Source: Bacteroidota bacterium
GTDB lineage: Bacteria > Bacteroidota > Ignavibacteria > Ignavibacteriales > Melioribacteraceae
Direction: 5' to 3'
Assembly: GCA_023381535.1 (NCBI GenBank)
Contig: JAMCSN010000155.1
Coordinates: forward strand, 1-7,905
DNA: 7,905 bases
Both the position numbers and the translations under genes were made by a program. Of the stretch, positions 5,124 through 7,905 are shown piece by piece. The first letter of the stretch is position 1, and each line of letters opens with the position of its first letter. The notes under the pieces were generated by a model. That model ran no database searches and was not told where the DNA came from. It saw only the letters and a program-made list of their open reading frames with translations.

Positions 5124-6302
5124 ATGAGAACGATTGTTGCGCTTCCCGGTGACGGAATTGGAAAAGTTGTTTTACCGGAATCAATAAGACTATTGGATGC
5201 AGCGGGATTCAAAGCTGATTACGTTTGGGGTGATATCGGATGGGATTTTTGGTGTAAAGAAGGAAACGCGCTACCGCAACGGACAATCGATTTAATTGTT
5301 CAGCACAAAATTGCTCTGTTCGGTGCGATAACAAGCAAGCCGAAAGATGCCGCTGAAAAGGAACTCGATCCAGCGTTGAAAGGAAAAGGTTATGTTTATT
5401 TTTCTCCAATCGTAAGTCTTCGCCAGCATTTCAATCTTGATATTTGTATTCGTCCGTGTCTCTCATTTAAAGGGAATCCACTGAACTTCATTCGGCAAAG
5501 TGCCAGTGGAGGAATTGAAGAACCGATTATTAATACAGTTATCTTCAGACAGAACACAGAAGGACTTTATTCTGGAGTTGAGTGGACTAATCCTCCAAAA
5601 GTAGTTCGAGACGCATTCGAGACGCATCCCAAGATGAAAACATTTAAGAACGTACCGAGCGAAGAGCTGGCAATCTCAAGTAGAATCGTCACAAAGAAAG
5701 CGAGCGAAAGAATTATCCGCGCCGCGTTCGAACACGCAAAGAAATTTGGTTACAAAAATCTTACGCTTTGCGAGAAGCCGAACGTTCTGCGCGAGACATC
5801 CGGAATGATGTTCAAGATTGCAAAAGAAATTGCGAAGGAATATCCTAACATTACATTGTGGGATACAAACATCGATGCACAGATGATGTGGCTTACTAAA
5901 AATCCAGAGGACTACGGTGTGATCGTCGCCGAAAATATGTTTGGCGATATAATCAGCGATGGATTTGCCGGATTAATCGGCGGACTCGGATTTGCGTGCA
6001 GCGCCAACATCGGCGAAGAAGTCGCAGTCTTTGAACCGACTCACGGCTCAGCGCCGAAATATGAGAAGCTCAATCCTTCTATCGTAAACCCGATTGCAAT
6101 GTTTATGAGCGCGTGCATGATGTTGGATCATATCGGTGAAAAAGAAATTTCGAACAAGATTAGAAAAGCAATTGCGTCTGTAGTTGAAGAAGGTAAAGTT
6201 AGAACTTACGATATGCTGAAACTGCGCGGCGGTGCAGATGTATTTGGAAAAGGTGCGGCATCAACTAATCAAATGACCGATGCAGTGATTTCAAAACTTT
6301 AG
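5124..6302 (+). CDS. Isocitrate/isopropylmalate-family dehydrogenase, probable homoisocitrate dehydrogenase
   Basis: This 392-residue enzyme belongs to the beta-decarboxylating dehydrogenases, which oxidise and decarboxylate a 2-hydroxy acid with NAD(P) and a divalent metal. Visible family parts are the LPGDGIG start (7-13), substrate arginines R100, R110 and R142, catalytic Y149 and K218, metal-binding D251, D275 and D279 in the NIDA and FGDIISD motifs, and HGSAP (307-311). The backbone resembles NADP isocitrate dehydrogenase (VIFRQNTEGLYSGVEW, 139-154). However, the substrate loop is SPIVSLR (94-100): the Asn that E. coli isocitrate dehydrogenase has two residues after its key Ser is Ile here. 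Yeast homoisocitrate dehydrogenase, as I recall it, has SPIV at this place. K312, Y313, Y362 and K366 match NADP-specific positions of the E. coli enzyme. With a homoaconitase-like gene downstream, homoisocitrate dehydrogenase of the alpha-aminoadipate lysine route is the best call; isocitrate or isopropylmalate dehydrogenase are alternatives. The family is certain, the substrate is inferred. Confidence 0.8.
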   Translation: MRTIVALPGDGIGKVVLPESIRLLDAAGFKADYVWGDIGWDFWCKEGNALPQRTIDLIVQHKIALFGAITSKPKDAAEKELDPALKGKGYVYFSPIVSLRQHFNLDICIRPCLSFKGNPLNFIRQSASGGIEEPIINTVIFRQNTEGLYSGVEWTNPPKVVRDAFETHPKMKTFKNVPSEELAISSRIVTKKASERIIRAAFEHAKKFGYKNLTLCEKPNVLRETSGMMFKIAKEIAKEYPNITLWDTNIDAQMMWLTKNPEDYGVIVAENMFGDIISDGFAGLIGGLGFACSANIGEEVAVFEPTHGSAPKYEKLNPSIVNPIAMFMSACMMLDHIGEKEISNKIRKAIASVVEEGKVRTYDMLKLRGGADVFGKGAASTNQMTDAVISKL

Positions 6303-6306
6303 TCGC

Positions 6307-6374
6307 CAAACGTGAAGGGTGAAACGGAAGTCGTTTGCGAAGTTGTTTCACTTTTCATATTTCATTTTTCACGG
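6307..6374. repeat. Small hairpin element built of GTSAAAN heptamers
   Basis: The element begins four bases after the dehydrogenase stop. The left arm holds two heptamers of type GTGAANN (6312-6325). The right arm holds four units in the complementary orientation, NTTTCAY (6345-6372), separated by 19 bases. GTGAAAC at 6319-6325 pairs perfectly with GTTTCAC at 6345-6351, and CGTGAA at 6311-6316 can pair with TTCACG at 6368-6373. The left part 6307-6324 matches 6935-6952 of the next element at 16 of 18 positions. It looks like an empty or collapsed relative of the element at 6915-7281. Confidence 0.7.
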
Positions 6375-6381: not shown

Positions 6382-6915
6382 ATGAGAGATAAAGTAAAAA
6401 AAATCTGGCCGGAAATTGAATGGATCAACGACCGGAAATTGAAAAACAAAGTTTTGGATTGCTGGGTTTACGCTTTAGAAAAATCCGCTCTCACAATCAA
6501 AGATCTTGAAACAATTCCGTTTTCGCTTCTTGTCAAGAATTGTAAAATTTCATTTATGAATCATAAGCGAACTTGTGTAAAGCTCGCCGTAGAAATGGCT
6601 AAGATCATGCAAGATAATTTCGGCAGCGAAATAAAAATCAACATGGATTATCTTATCGCCGGTGCCATTCTGATTGATGTCGGTAAACTTTTGGAATACG
6701 AAAAAGTAAAAGGCAAAATTGTTACAAGCAAAGCCGGCGAGTTAGTGCGGCATCCGTTCAGTGGACAAGCAATTGCGGCACGTTTCGATTTACCCGCTGA
6801 AGTTCAGCATATTATTGCAACGCATTCTACGGAGGGAGATCTCGGCAAGCGTTCTGTCGAATCAATTATAGTTCATCATGCAGATTTTGTTTCGTTTGAA
6901 CCGTTTAGGTCGTAA
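6382..6915 (+). CDS. Small HD-domain protein with altered HD doublet
   Basis: The product is a 177-residue soluble protein of the HD-domain (metal-dependent phosphohydrolase) type. Visible landmarks are H61 (MNHKR), the helix AGAILIDVGKLLEY (93-106), RHPFSG with H124, IIATHS with H148, and VHHADF with D168. In normal HD proteins the second landmark reads HD; here it is I98-D99. The Ile codon is ATT, two changes from a His codon, so this is not a simple sequencing error. Other metal ligands appear intact, so it may have weak, altered or no hydrolase activity. The closing FEPF (172-175) and HPFSG give it a distinct subfamily look. It sits between the dehydrogenase and the homoaconitase on the same strand, which suggests a link to that pathway, but no substrate can be named. 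Repeat elements flank it on both sides. The start at 6382 is supported by GGAG at 6373. Confidence 0.75.
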   Translation: MRDKVKKIWPEIEWINDRKLKNKVLDCWVYALEKSALTIKDLETIPFSLLVKNCKISFMNHKRTCVKLAVEMAKIMQDNFGSEIKINMDYLIAGAILIDVGKLLEYEKVKGKIVTSKAGELVRHPFSGQAIAARFDLPAEVQHIIATHSTEGDLGKRSVESIIVHHADFVSFEPFRS

Positions 6916-6953
6916 AACGTTAATAGTGAAAAGTCAAACGTGAAAGGTCAAAG
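6915..6953 (+). repeat. Left inverted-repeat arm, four GTSAAAN heptamers
   Basis: Four back-to-back heptamers of type GTSAAAN occupy 6926-6953, preceded by the hexamer AAACGT at 6915-6920. Both parts recur in inverted form at 7243-7281 with the same five-base offset between hexamer and array. The units alternate GTG and GTC. Paired with the right arm, about 22 of 28 array positions are complementary. The arm begins within the stop codon of the HD gene, and its last G starts a GGAG Shine-Dalgarno (6953-6956) for the four-helix-bundle remnant. Confidence 0.75.
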
Positions 6954-6964
6954 GAGATATTTTA

Positions 6965-7229
6965 ATGCTACAGTTGAACCATAAGAAACTTGAAGTATGG
7001 CAGTCAAGCGTTAATTTGGTAACCGAGATATATCTTATTACTAAAACTTTCCCGAAAGAAGAAATGTTTGGTTTAACGAATCAACTTAGAAGAGCGGCAA
7101 TTTCAAATTGATTCTCAAATAGAAATTGCTATTCGTCTTGAATACCTAAATAAAGATCAAGCAGAAAAAATTGATTTATTGCTAAATCAAATTTTTGCAA
7201 TGCTATCAAAATTAATTTCAAATACTTAA
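6965..7229 (+). pseudogene. Four-helix-bundle (S23-like) protein gene, internally deleted and frameshifted
   Basis: From ATG 6965 (GGAG at 6953-6956) the frame gives 48 residues, with KKLEVWQSSVNLV (7-19), FPKEEMFGLTNQLRRAAIS (29-47) and then TGA at 7109-7111. These are hallmarks of the S23/23S-intervening-sequence four-helix-bundle family, where FGLTSQ-RRAA is usually followed by a SIPSNIAEG-like stretch. In the +1 frame from 7110 the C-terminal part resumes as DSQIEIAIRLEYLNKDQ and ends SNT at TAA 7227-7229, giving 39 more residues. Intact members are about 115-120 residues; here some 30 residues including the IAEG region are missing and the frame is shifted. The junction lies near 7106-7110. 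Relatives are known as pentameric structural proteins, including the Avd accessory protein of diversity-generating retroelements, but most have no known function. The copy is almost certainly non-functional. Confidence 0.8.
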
Positions 7230-7242
7230 TTTATTATACCTT

Positions 7243-7281
7243 TTTTCACCTTTGACTTTTGACCTTTGACGGTCCACGTTT
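7243..7281 (-). repeat. Right inverted-repeat arm, four heptamers complementary to GTSAAAN
   Basis: Four contiguous units of type TTTSACN run from 7244 to 7271, followed by ACGTTT at 7276-7281. The reverse complement mirrors the left arm at 6915-6953. The 14 bases at 7258-7271 match the complement of 6939-6952 at 13 positions. The arm lies between the four-helix-bundle remnant and the homoaconitase start, whose Shine-Dalgarno follows at 7285. Confidence 0.75.
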
Positions 7282-7284
7282 CTC

Positions 7285-7293: not shown

Positions 7294-7905
7294 ATGTCTC
7301 AAACCTTAATCGAAAAAATTGCCCAGCGTTATGCAGTCGGATTGCAGCCAAACCATATCGTTCACGCTGGAGATTATTTGTCCATTCGTCCCGCTTATGT
7401 AATGACACACGATAATACAGGCGCGGTAATTCCGAAATTCAAAAGTATCGGTGCGACCAAACTTGCAAATCCAAGACAAGTGGTTCATACGCTCGACCAC
7501 GACATCCAAAACAAAGATGAAAAGAATTTAGCCAAGTACAAGAAGATAGAAGAGTTTTCCAAATCGATGGGTGCTGATTTTTATCCTGCCGGACGAGGCA
7601 TCGGTCATCAAATAATGATTGAAGAAGGTTACGCGTTCCCCGGTACTATGGCCGTCGCATCGGACAGTCATTCCAACATGTACGGAGGAATCGGGTGTTT
7701 AGGAACGCCAATTGTACGAACTGACGCAGCAGCAATTTGGGCAACCGGAAGAACATGGTGGCAAGTTCCACCGATCGCAAAAGTTGAACTCAAAGGAAAA
7801 CTTAGAACGGGTGTGACCGGTAAAGATGTGATTATTGCGCTCTGCGGATTTTTTAATCACGATGAAGTTCTAAACCACGCGATAGAATTTATCGGCGACG
7901 GAATA
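7294..7905 (+). CDS. Homoaconitase, fungal Lys4-like type (N-terminal part, cut by window edge)
   Basis: An open frame of 204 codons runs to the window edge. The product belongs to the aconitase superfamily, which moves a hydroxyl group by dehydration and rehydration on a 4Fe-4S cluster. Landmarks are THDN (38-41), LDHDIQNK (67-74), [10 protein letters not shown] (97-106), IEEGYAFPG (109-117), ASDSHSN (122-128), [11 protein letters not shown] (136-146), [13 protein letters not shown] (148-160) and LNHAIEF (193-199). From memory, nearly the whole stretch aligns without gaps to yeast Lys4 at clearly more than half identity, including LDHDIQNK and IWATG.TWWQ.PP. That makes homoaconitase (homocitrate to homoisocitrate) the likely activity. 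The Fe-S cysteines and the swivelling C-terminal domain lie beyond the window, so I cannot tell whether it is a single chain like Lys4 or split like Thermus LysT/LysU. A related isopropylmalate isomerase or aconitase is the alternative. It pairs logically with the dehydrogenase upstream. Confidence 0.85.

Follow-up and report, generated by a model that had tools for sequence, protein, structure and literature searches.

What kind of sequence separates the aconitase family gene on this Melioribacteraceae contig from the conserved gene that precedes it? The interval holds a broken gene of the S23 family (PF05635, '23S rRNA-intervening sequence protein'), and the gene is flanked by two inverted arrays of short repeats (Table 1). 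We call the whole analysed stretch of 7,905 nt the window. Judged from sequence comparison, positions 6912-7284 are most likely a decayed copy of a compact mobile element, which we name the S23 element.

Table 1. Features of the window around the broken S23 gene
Feature	Positions	Strand	Remarks
Isocitrate/isopropylmalate dehydrogenase family gene	5124..6302	+	PF00180, E 8.4e-75
S23-less heptamer hairpin in the preceding gap; two units left, four right	6312..6372	+	
Conserved gene upstream of the element	6382..6915	+	No Pfam match above cut-off
Left array, six GTSAAAN heptamers, outer two degenerate	6912..6953	+	Starts at the upstream gene's stop codon
S23 (PF05635) N-terminal part, broken gene	6965..7108	+	PF05635 positions 1-41, E 7.3e-14
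S23 C-terminal part, other frame, with stop codon	7113..7229 (match 7113-7226)	+	PF05635 positions 74-105, E 0.0033, alone below the family cut-off
Right array, six inverted heptamers	7243..7284	-	Ends just 5' of the GGAG preceding the downstream start codon
Aconitase family gene downstream, cut at the window end	7294..7905	+	PF00330, E 7e-43

In both arrays, the inner four units match GTSAAAN exactly. The left array reads GTAAAAC GTTAATA GTGAAAA GTCAAAC GTGAAAG GTCAAAG. The right array, read on the other strand from 7284 to 7243, is GAGAAAC GTGGACC GTCAAAG GTCAAAA GTCAAAG GTGAAAA. The two exact four-unit runs lie at 6926-6953 (plus strand) and 7243-7270 (minus strand). Four consecutive units with at most two mismatches are matched six times in the window, overlapping registers counted, versus never in 200 dinucleotide shuffles. 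The initial annotation had counted four contiguous heptamers per side; the arrays are real, but in register each has six. The AAACGT hexamer that it had placed at the same offset beside both arrays is present, but belongs to the two degenerate outer units. The alternation of GTG and GTC units holds for the left array, whereas the right one reads C, C, C, G. Complementarity of the arms is 77% over 35 nt.

The gene survives as two PF05635 pieces in different frames, the first of which scores above the family cut-off, and about 32 of the 106 profile positions are absent between them. Its N-terminal piece matches PDB chain 2gsc_A (E 4.5e-10), the sole solved relative found with that piece. The paper on this chain reportedly has five four-helix bundles in its title. 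A Pfam scan of both open pieces returned S23 alone and no transposase. No further open reading frame (ORF) of at least 50 aa lies between the arrays, and an Rfam search of the window gave no match up to E 1. Since it has no intact S23 reading frame, the window copy would be non-autonomous.

Relatives were collected by scanning genome contigs with the dehydrogenase and taking the best 80 loci, the closest eight of which are 82-89% identical. These eight are titled Melioribacter, Stygiobacter, Ignavibacterium or 'Bacteroidetes bacterium', and the set is called Ignavibacteria-type here. A PF05635 search gave 87 matches in ten Ignavibacteria-type genomes, all ten being positive, and none in 14 control genomes. 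Three fragment pairs were merged to one gene each and two small fragments were dropped, leaving a first set of 82 loci. A further 30 genomes were searched, 26 of which had matches, and each genome's better-scoring loci (60 in all) formed a second set. This fell to 57 on removal of L239, which has no profile match, and of two loci with flanks below 80 nt, for a total of 139 S23 loci. Record titles in the second set name Bacteroidetes, Anaerolineales, Phycisphaerae, Gemmatimonadota, Cloacimonadota and Neomarinimicrobiota, with the caution that bins can be misassigned.

Arms were scored by the best ungapped inverted match between the 200 nt upstream and the 200 nt downstream of the gene. The median score is 17 at the 82 first-set loci and 10 when flanks are swapped between loci; the swapped 99th percentile, 17, is exceeded by 40 of the 82. 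In the 68 arm pairs scoring at least 13, the self-match at lag 7 is 0.54 and 0.57, versus 0.28 far from the gene. A joint criterion was then applied: the inverted score had to reach 14, and a period of 6-9 had to show a match of half or more. It is passed by 103 of 139 S23 loci, the first set, which was unselected, contributing 58 of its 82, and missed by 36, versus 2 of 617 other genes, which represent 800 kb from three of the genomes. Those 800 kb hold 48 periodic inverted pairs against 17 in a Markov control, with arms at six of the eight S23 genes there. An S23 gene bounded by arrays recurs as a unit, and the initial annotation was right to separate it from ordinary terminal inverted repeats.

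The repeat word varies between loci. Among the 111 elements scoring at least 14, the period is 7 in 77, 8 in 23, 6 in 6, 9 in 3 and 10 in 2. Of 102 untied elements, 91 have more G than C in the arms when these are read toward the gene; the skew of coding flanks has the same sign but is weaker. The median numbers of units per arm are 5.9 and 5.4 under a loose extension rule, so a match between unit number and the pentamer is suggestive at most and was set aside. One low-scoring set of S23 genes from four Ignavibacteria-type genomes (L177, L184, L185 and L187) has no arrays, the best inverted scores being 10-12. The DNA of these genes is alike over 433-594 nt, three have a common gene context, and the set is possibly a fixed, domesticated form. 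A position inside rRNA is suspected for none of the fetched loci, since flanks at the low end of the sorted list are at least 60% covered by ORFs (a judgement from ORF coverage only). Phage records gave no match to one S23 query.

The association is strong from S23 to array and weak from array to S23. A threefold GTSAAAN pattern gave 67 matches, merged into 39 sites, in 7 of 12 related genomes, compared with 4 matches for a reversed control pattern. Two of the 39 sites are S23 arms and three are S23-less hairpins in the dehydrogenase gap. At the remaining 34, the stretch contains no S23, and no inverted partner with a score of at least 14 occurs within 700 nt; ORFs of at least 150 aa contain 9 of the 34. 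The expectation that pairs of GTSAAAN arrays would generally enclose S23 genes thus failed, with 2 of 39 array sites linked to S23, and GTSAAAN proved to be one among many units. Because 34 sites have neither S23 nor an inverted partner, arrays also spread or arise without S23, and the S23 element does not account for the solo arrays. On this side of the evidence (2 of 39 sites linked, 0 of 34 partnered), the arrays could be simple-sequence debris, that is, slippage repeats between genes gathered at S23 by chance or under relaxed selection. That explanation is already disfavoured, and we regard it as very improbable: it meets 103 of 139 S23 loci against 2 of 617 other genes, arms that are inverted and in register, and units that are common to unrelated loci.

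The units at unrelated loci were compared along the S23 lineage. There are 43 pairs of elements whose S23s are at least 60% identical and whose flanking genes have no detected relation. Their mean arm similarity is 18.4 and 95% have the same period, with the proviso that the pairs overlap in members and that one pair consists of two neighbouring elements of one operon. Mean arm similarity is 7.4 for S23 pairs below 25% identity and 7.4-8.0 at 25-50%. On a FastTree phylogeny of S23 (107 labelled rows), 16 changes of period were counted, versus a mean of 31.6 and a minimum of 26 in 200 shuffles. Seven Ignavibacteria-type S23s share 65-71% identity with that of a Nostoc element (L381), whose arms score 15-26 against theirs, compared with a median of 7 over the 111 elements. 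There are counter-examples on plasmids. L367 shares 63-66% S23 identity with six of the seven relatives of L381, but its arms are unlike theirs (scores 8-11), and L361 has arms that resemble those of L285 while the S23s are only 27% identical. Overall, a given S23 lineage tends to have its own array unit, and the unit is kept at unrelated loci.

Whole elements are also present or absent at the same junction. At the junction before aconitase, S23 is found at 9 of 17 comparable loci, the window included, and is lacking at eight, one of which (L019) is a distant locus; the S23-less gaps measure 8 to 192 nt. The site is therefore not filled in all relatives. At the junction preceding that one, S23 is found at 3 of 18. 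Five plasmid operon junctions were found both filled and empty in close relatives: one in a TraM-domain operon, one in an integrase operon, two within one three-gene operon, and cmr2-cmr3. The 17 plasmid comparison records comprise 11 that are empty, three with S23 (L380, L381 and L384), two with S23-less inserts (L372 and L373) and one with another downstream gene (L378). Empty plasmid gaps range from a one-base overlap to 52 nt. Empty sites in relatives, a trait of insertion sequences, were thus observed for other copies, and the window's own junction is among the 17 aconitase loci.

The upstream end of an element coincides with the preceding gene's stop codon or lies close to it, and the downstream end is no more than about 50 nt from the following start. 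The upstream ORF is codirectional in 78 of 81 first-set cases, versus 484 of 606 background pairs of neighbouring ORFs, with ORFs called mechanically in both. At the TraM-operon junction, two inserts are bounded by arrays and have no S23 (L372:790-1110 and L373:790-1190), and in further Nostoc plasmids that junction is occupied by S23 elements or is empty. A possible 5-nt flanking repeat, TTCTA, occurs at one junction and resembles the array unit. Next to the element, the filled tra junction lacks about 40 nt of the spacer found in its empty counterpart. Among the compared plasmid junctions, no consistent target-site duplication was seen.

Finished plasmids were searched to exclude assembly artefacts. 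A query with one S23 protein found 32 records, mostly from cyanobacteria, and a plasmid DNA search with one Ignavibacteria-type element gave no match. Twelve of the higher-listed records were analysed, representing ten distinct elements because two pairs are copies. All 12 have inverted periodic arms, with a period of 7 in ten and 8 in two, and scores of 16-33 that were taken without a swapped control. In two Nostoc plasmids the right array of one element has six and seven exact unit copies, respectively. This loss or gain of a whole unit supports the unit slippage suggested at the outset. S23 genes in cyanobacterial plasmids also occupy the cas6-cas4 and cmr2-cmr3 junctions (L362, L363 and L367). 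S23 genes have been noted in cas loci (PMC3936711, in the part available). Since the cmr2-cmr3 junction is empty in PCC 7002 (L379), this reported link may simply reflect insertion into an operon gap.

Several known systems resemble the S23 element in part. Insertion sequences and MITEs have inverted ends, empty sites and short gene-less derivatives. The S23 element is like them in all three respects but differs in having no transposase, ends made of degenerate tandem arrays in place of a conserved terminal repeat, and no consistent target duplication. REPIN/RAYT systems consist of dispersed intergenic hairpins, built on the REP hairpin, with a cognate gene, a Y1 transposase. S23 elements likewise combine hairpins scattered over intergenic gaps with a cognate gene; however, S23 is not a Y1 transposase, and arrays of units are not a REP hairpin. 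Cyanobacterial STRRs are intergenic tandem heptamers, but they are direct repeats of one fixed word and are not paired around a gene. The same applies to the TAACTGA repeats, which share tandem heptamers between genes and differ as direct repeats of one fixed word, unpaired around a gene, with one inverted case noted in the available text (PMC4679880).

The closest likeness is with the S23-bearing intervening sequences of 23S rRNA genes. In Leptospira and Coxiella an S23 gene lies inside complementary ends, and such inserts are suspected to be mobile or to be remnants of transposition (PMC4990558, available part). The window likewise holds its S23 gene between complementary ends. It differs in lying between protein genes and not inside a 23S rRNA gene, in having arrays on both sides, and in having units that depend on lineage. 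The Coxiella insert carries tandem GACAGAT heptamers just before S23, in two or three copies by strain; the available part of the paper mentions a 28-bp stem of inverted repeats and no matching array at the other end. These heptamers directly upstream of S23 are the sole precedent in the literature searched, as far as the source extends, and they strengthen the kinship to rRNA intervening sequences that the initial annotation had proposed. No description of paired arrays around S23 was found in this literature, a search to which most subscription papers and bioRxiv-only work are external. S23 genes also occur in rRNA insertions of CPR bacteria, and PF05635, a widespread family, was still called functionally uncharacterised in 2024 (both from the part of PMC11270868 available).

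In the reading that we propose, the S23 element consists of one PF05635 four-helix-bundle gene between two inverted arrays of degenerate 6-9-nt units, mostly of 7 nt. It lies in sense orientation where two co-transcribed genes leave a short gap. Its protein, which forms a pentamer in the solved relative, may bind the units of both arrays (step 1). Binding would bring the ends together and lead to insertion, with or without a host enzyme (step 2). Array-only hairpins may be mobilised in trans (step 3), and slippage and exchange between arms could renew the arrays (step 4). The reading as a whole, a compact mobile element whose arrays S23 would recognise, has in our estimate a probability of roughly 0.6, because its core is the element and recognition enters as something we infer. 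Taken separately, the whole element is very probably mobile, and recognition by S23 itself, although the most likely arrangement, stands at close to even odds. From the arrays we infer that recognition would proceed unit by unit, as had been suggested for the window.

Among 64 pairs of S23 genes at least 60% identical, dN/dS was computed for 58, and its median is 0.147 over the 33 pairs with dS below 2.5. These values indicate purifying selection on S23, and hence some function of the protein. Its pI is only mildly basic, with a median of 8.0 and values above 8 in 69 of 130. We know of no catalytic residue in S23.

A different enzyme could move the elements in trans with S23 as an accessory, either a reverse transcriptase, as for the related Avd, or a Y1 transposase. 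Avd of diversity-generating retroelements is a related four-helix-bundle protein that PF05635 resembles (PMC10053308, available part), and a weak bAvd match was obtained (E 0.018, below cut-off). A Y1 transposase match is found in 33 of 40 genomes. The distribution of S23, however, requires neither enzyme. No RVT_1 match was found in six S23-rich relatives (G001, G004, G005, G007, G013 and G028), and no Y1 transposase match in G006 (four S23 matches), G016 or G032-G034, all with S23 matches; these genomes may be incomplete. Reverse transcriptase and Y1 transposase were thus both rejected as necessary partners, and the latter is missing as the cognate that REPIN/RAYT systems have. We consider movement in trans by another enzyme improbable. 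Because the distribution requires neither, S23 most likely recognises the arrays itself.

A stronger competitor, which we still hold to be rather unlikely, places the arrays at the RNA level. The arms would form a stem in the polycistronic transcript that is cut by RNase III, as rRNA inserts are (PMC4990558, available part); S23 would be a passenger or an RNA-binding helper, and spread would be rare. Pairing of the arms as RNA has a median energy of -32.8 kcal/mol, versus -11.7 for swapped arms (111 elements), and the window element folds with a z of -3.5. The sense orientation (78 of 81) fits, and so does in-register agreement of the arms beyond the sharing of units, which reaches p<0.01 in 29 of 109 elements versus 4 of 109 when units are permuted first. 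Yet the antisense duplex is about as stable (-33.4 versus -32.8), the sense strand being better in 60 of 111 (p 0.07). G-U pairs have no sense-transcript bias either (156 versus 135, p 0.24). With neither asymmetry, selection for pairing in the sense transcript was rejected, and a role for the arrays in DNA or in both strands is favoured over one in the transcript alone. An RNA stem also leaves unexplained why a common 7-nt period goes with a lineage-specific unit.

The mobile S23 element can be extended to a wider scheme that is possible but unlikely as a whole. S23 elements would be a widespread mobile class without a recognisable transposase, and the pentameric four-helix-bundle protein would be the mobility factor, reading a lineage-specific short-word code at both ends. 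The 23S rRNA intervening sequences would be a branch that landed in rRNA, and array-only hairpins would be non-autonomous offspring. The gene is small, an orphan and known mainly from rRNA gene inserts. Since gene and arrays come and go together between operon genes, here and in many other bacteria, the S23 element looks like an overlooked kind of tiny mobile element. If most PF05635 genes are the core of array-bounded elements, their function becomes directly testable. This would also explain S23 genes in rRNA genes, cas operons and plasmid transfer operons, and would provide naturally occurring pairs of protein and DNA word with which to study repeat recognition. For annotation it is a warning that many short intergenic repeats and hairpins may derive from one element type.

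Arrays without S23 take several forms. The 800 kb contain eight short-loop periodic hairpins that lack S23. When the 63 matches to their arms are ranked, seven of the eight hairpins have an S23 element from their own genome in first or second place, although equally high scores are often reached by elements from other genomes. For one of these hairpins, scoring 40 of 65 candidates gave a minimum of 28 matches in genome G007, some of them arranged in tandem at a period of 118 nt. In that genome (contig C5, L352:557-1404), the hairpin is amplified as a 118-nt tandem repeat of 7.2 copies with 97% matches, and dispersed copies lie elsewhere. One S23 gene on a Nostoc plasmid is interrupted by a 182-bp repeat (L384:581-762) that has heptamer arrays at its ends; the element to which this gene belongs has a similar word. 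No target duplication is evident there, and the repeat is found at 98 places in 43 plasmid records. As separate observations, in-frame GTSAAAN arrays occur at L323, L330, L332, L333, L344 and L348, at the equivalent position of domains with YPNPFNPST...VKGETSNVKLIVYDILG. These domains look like type IX secretion C-terminal domains. Three G015 loci (L320, L324 and L331) are intergenic mosaics in which arrays of an 8-nt unit (AAGATTNN) adjoin GTSAAAN arrays.
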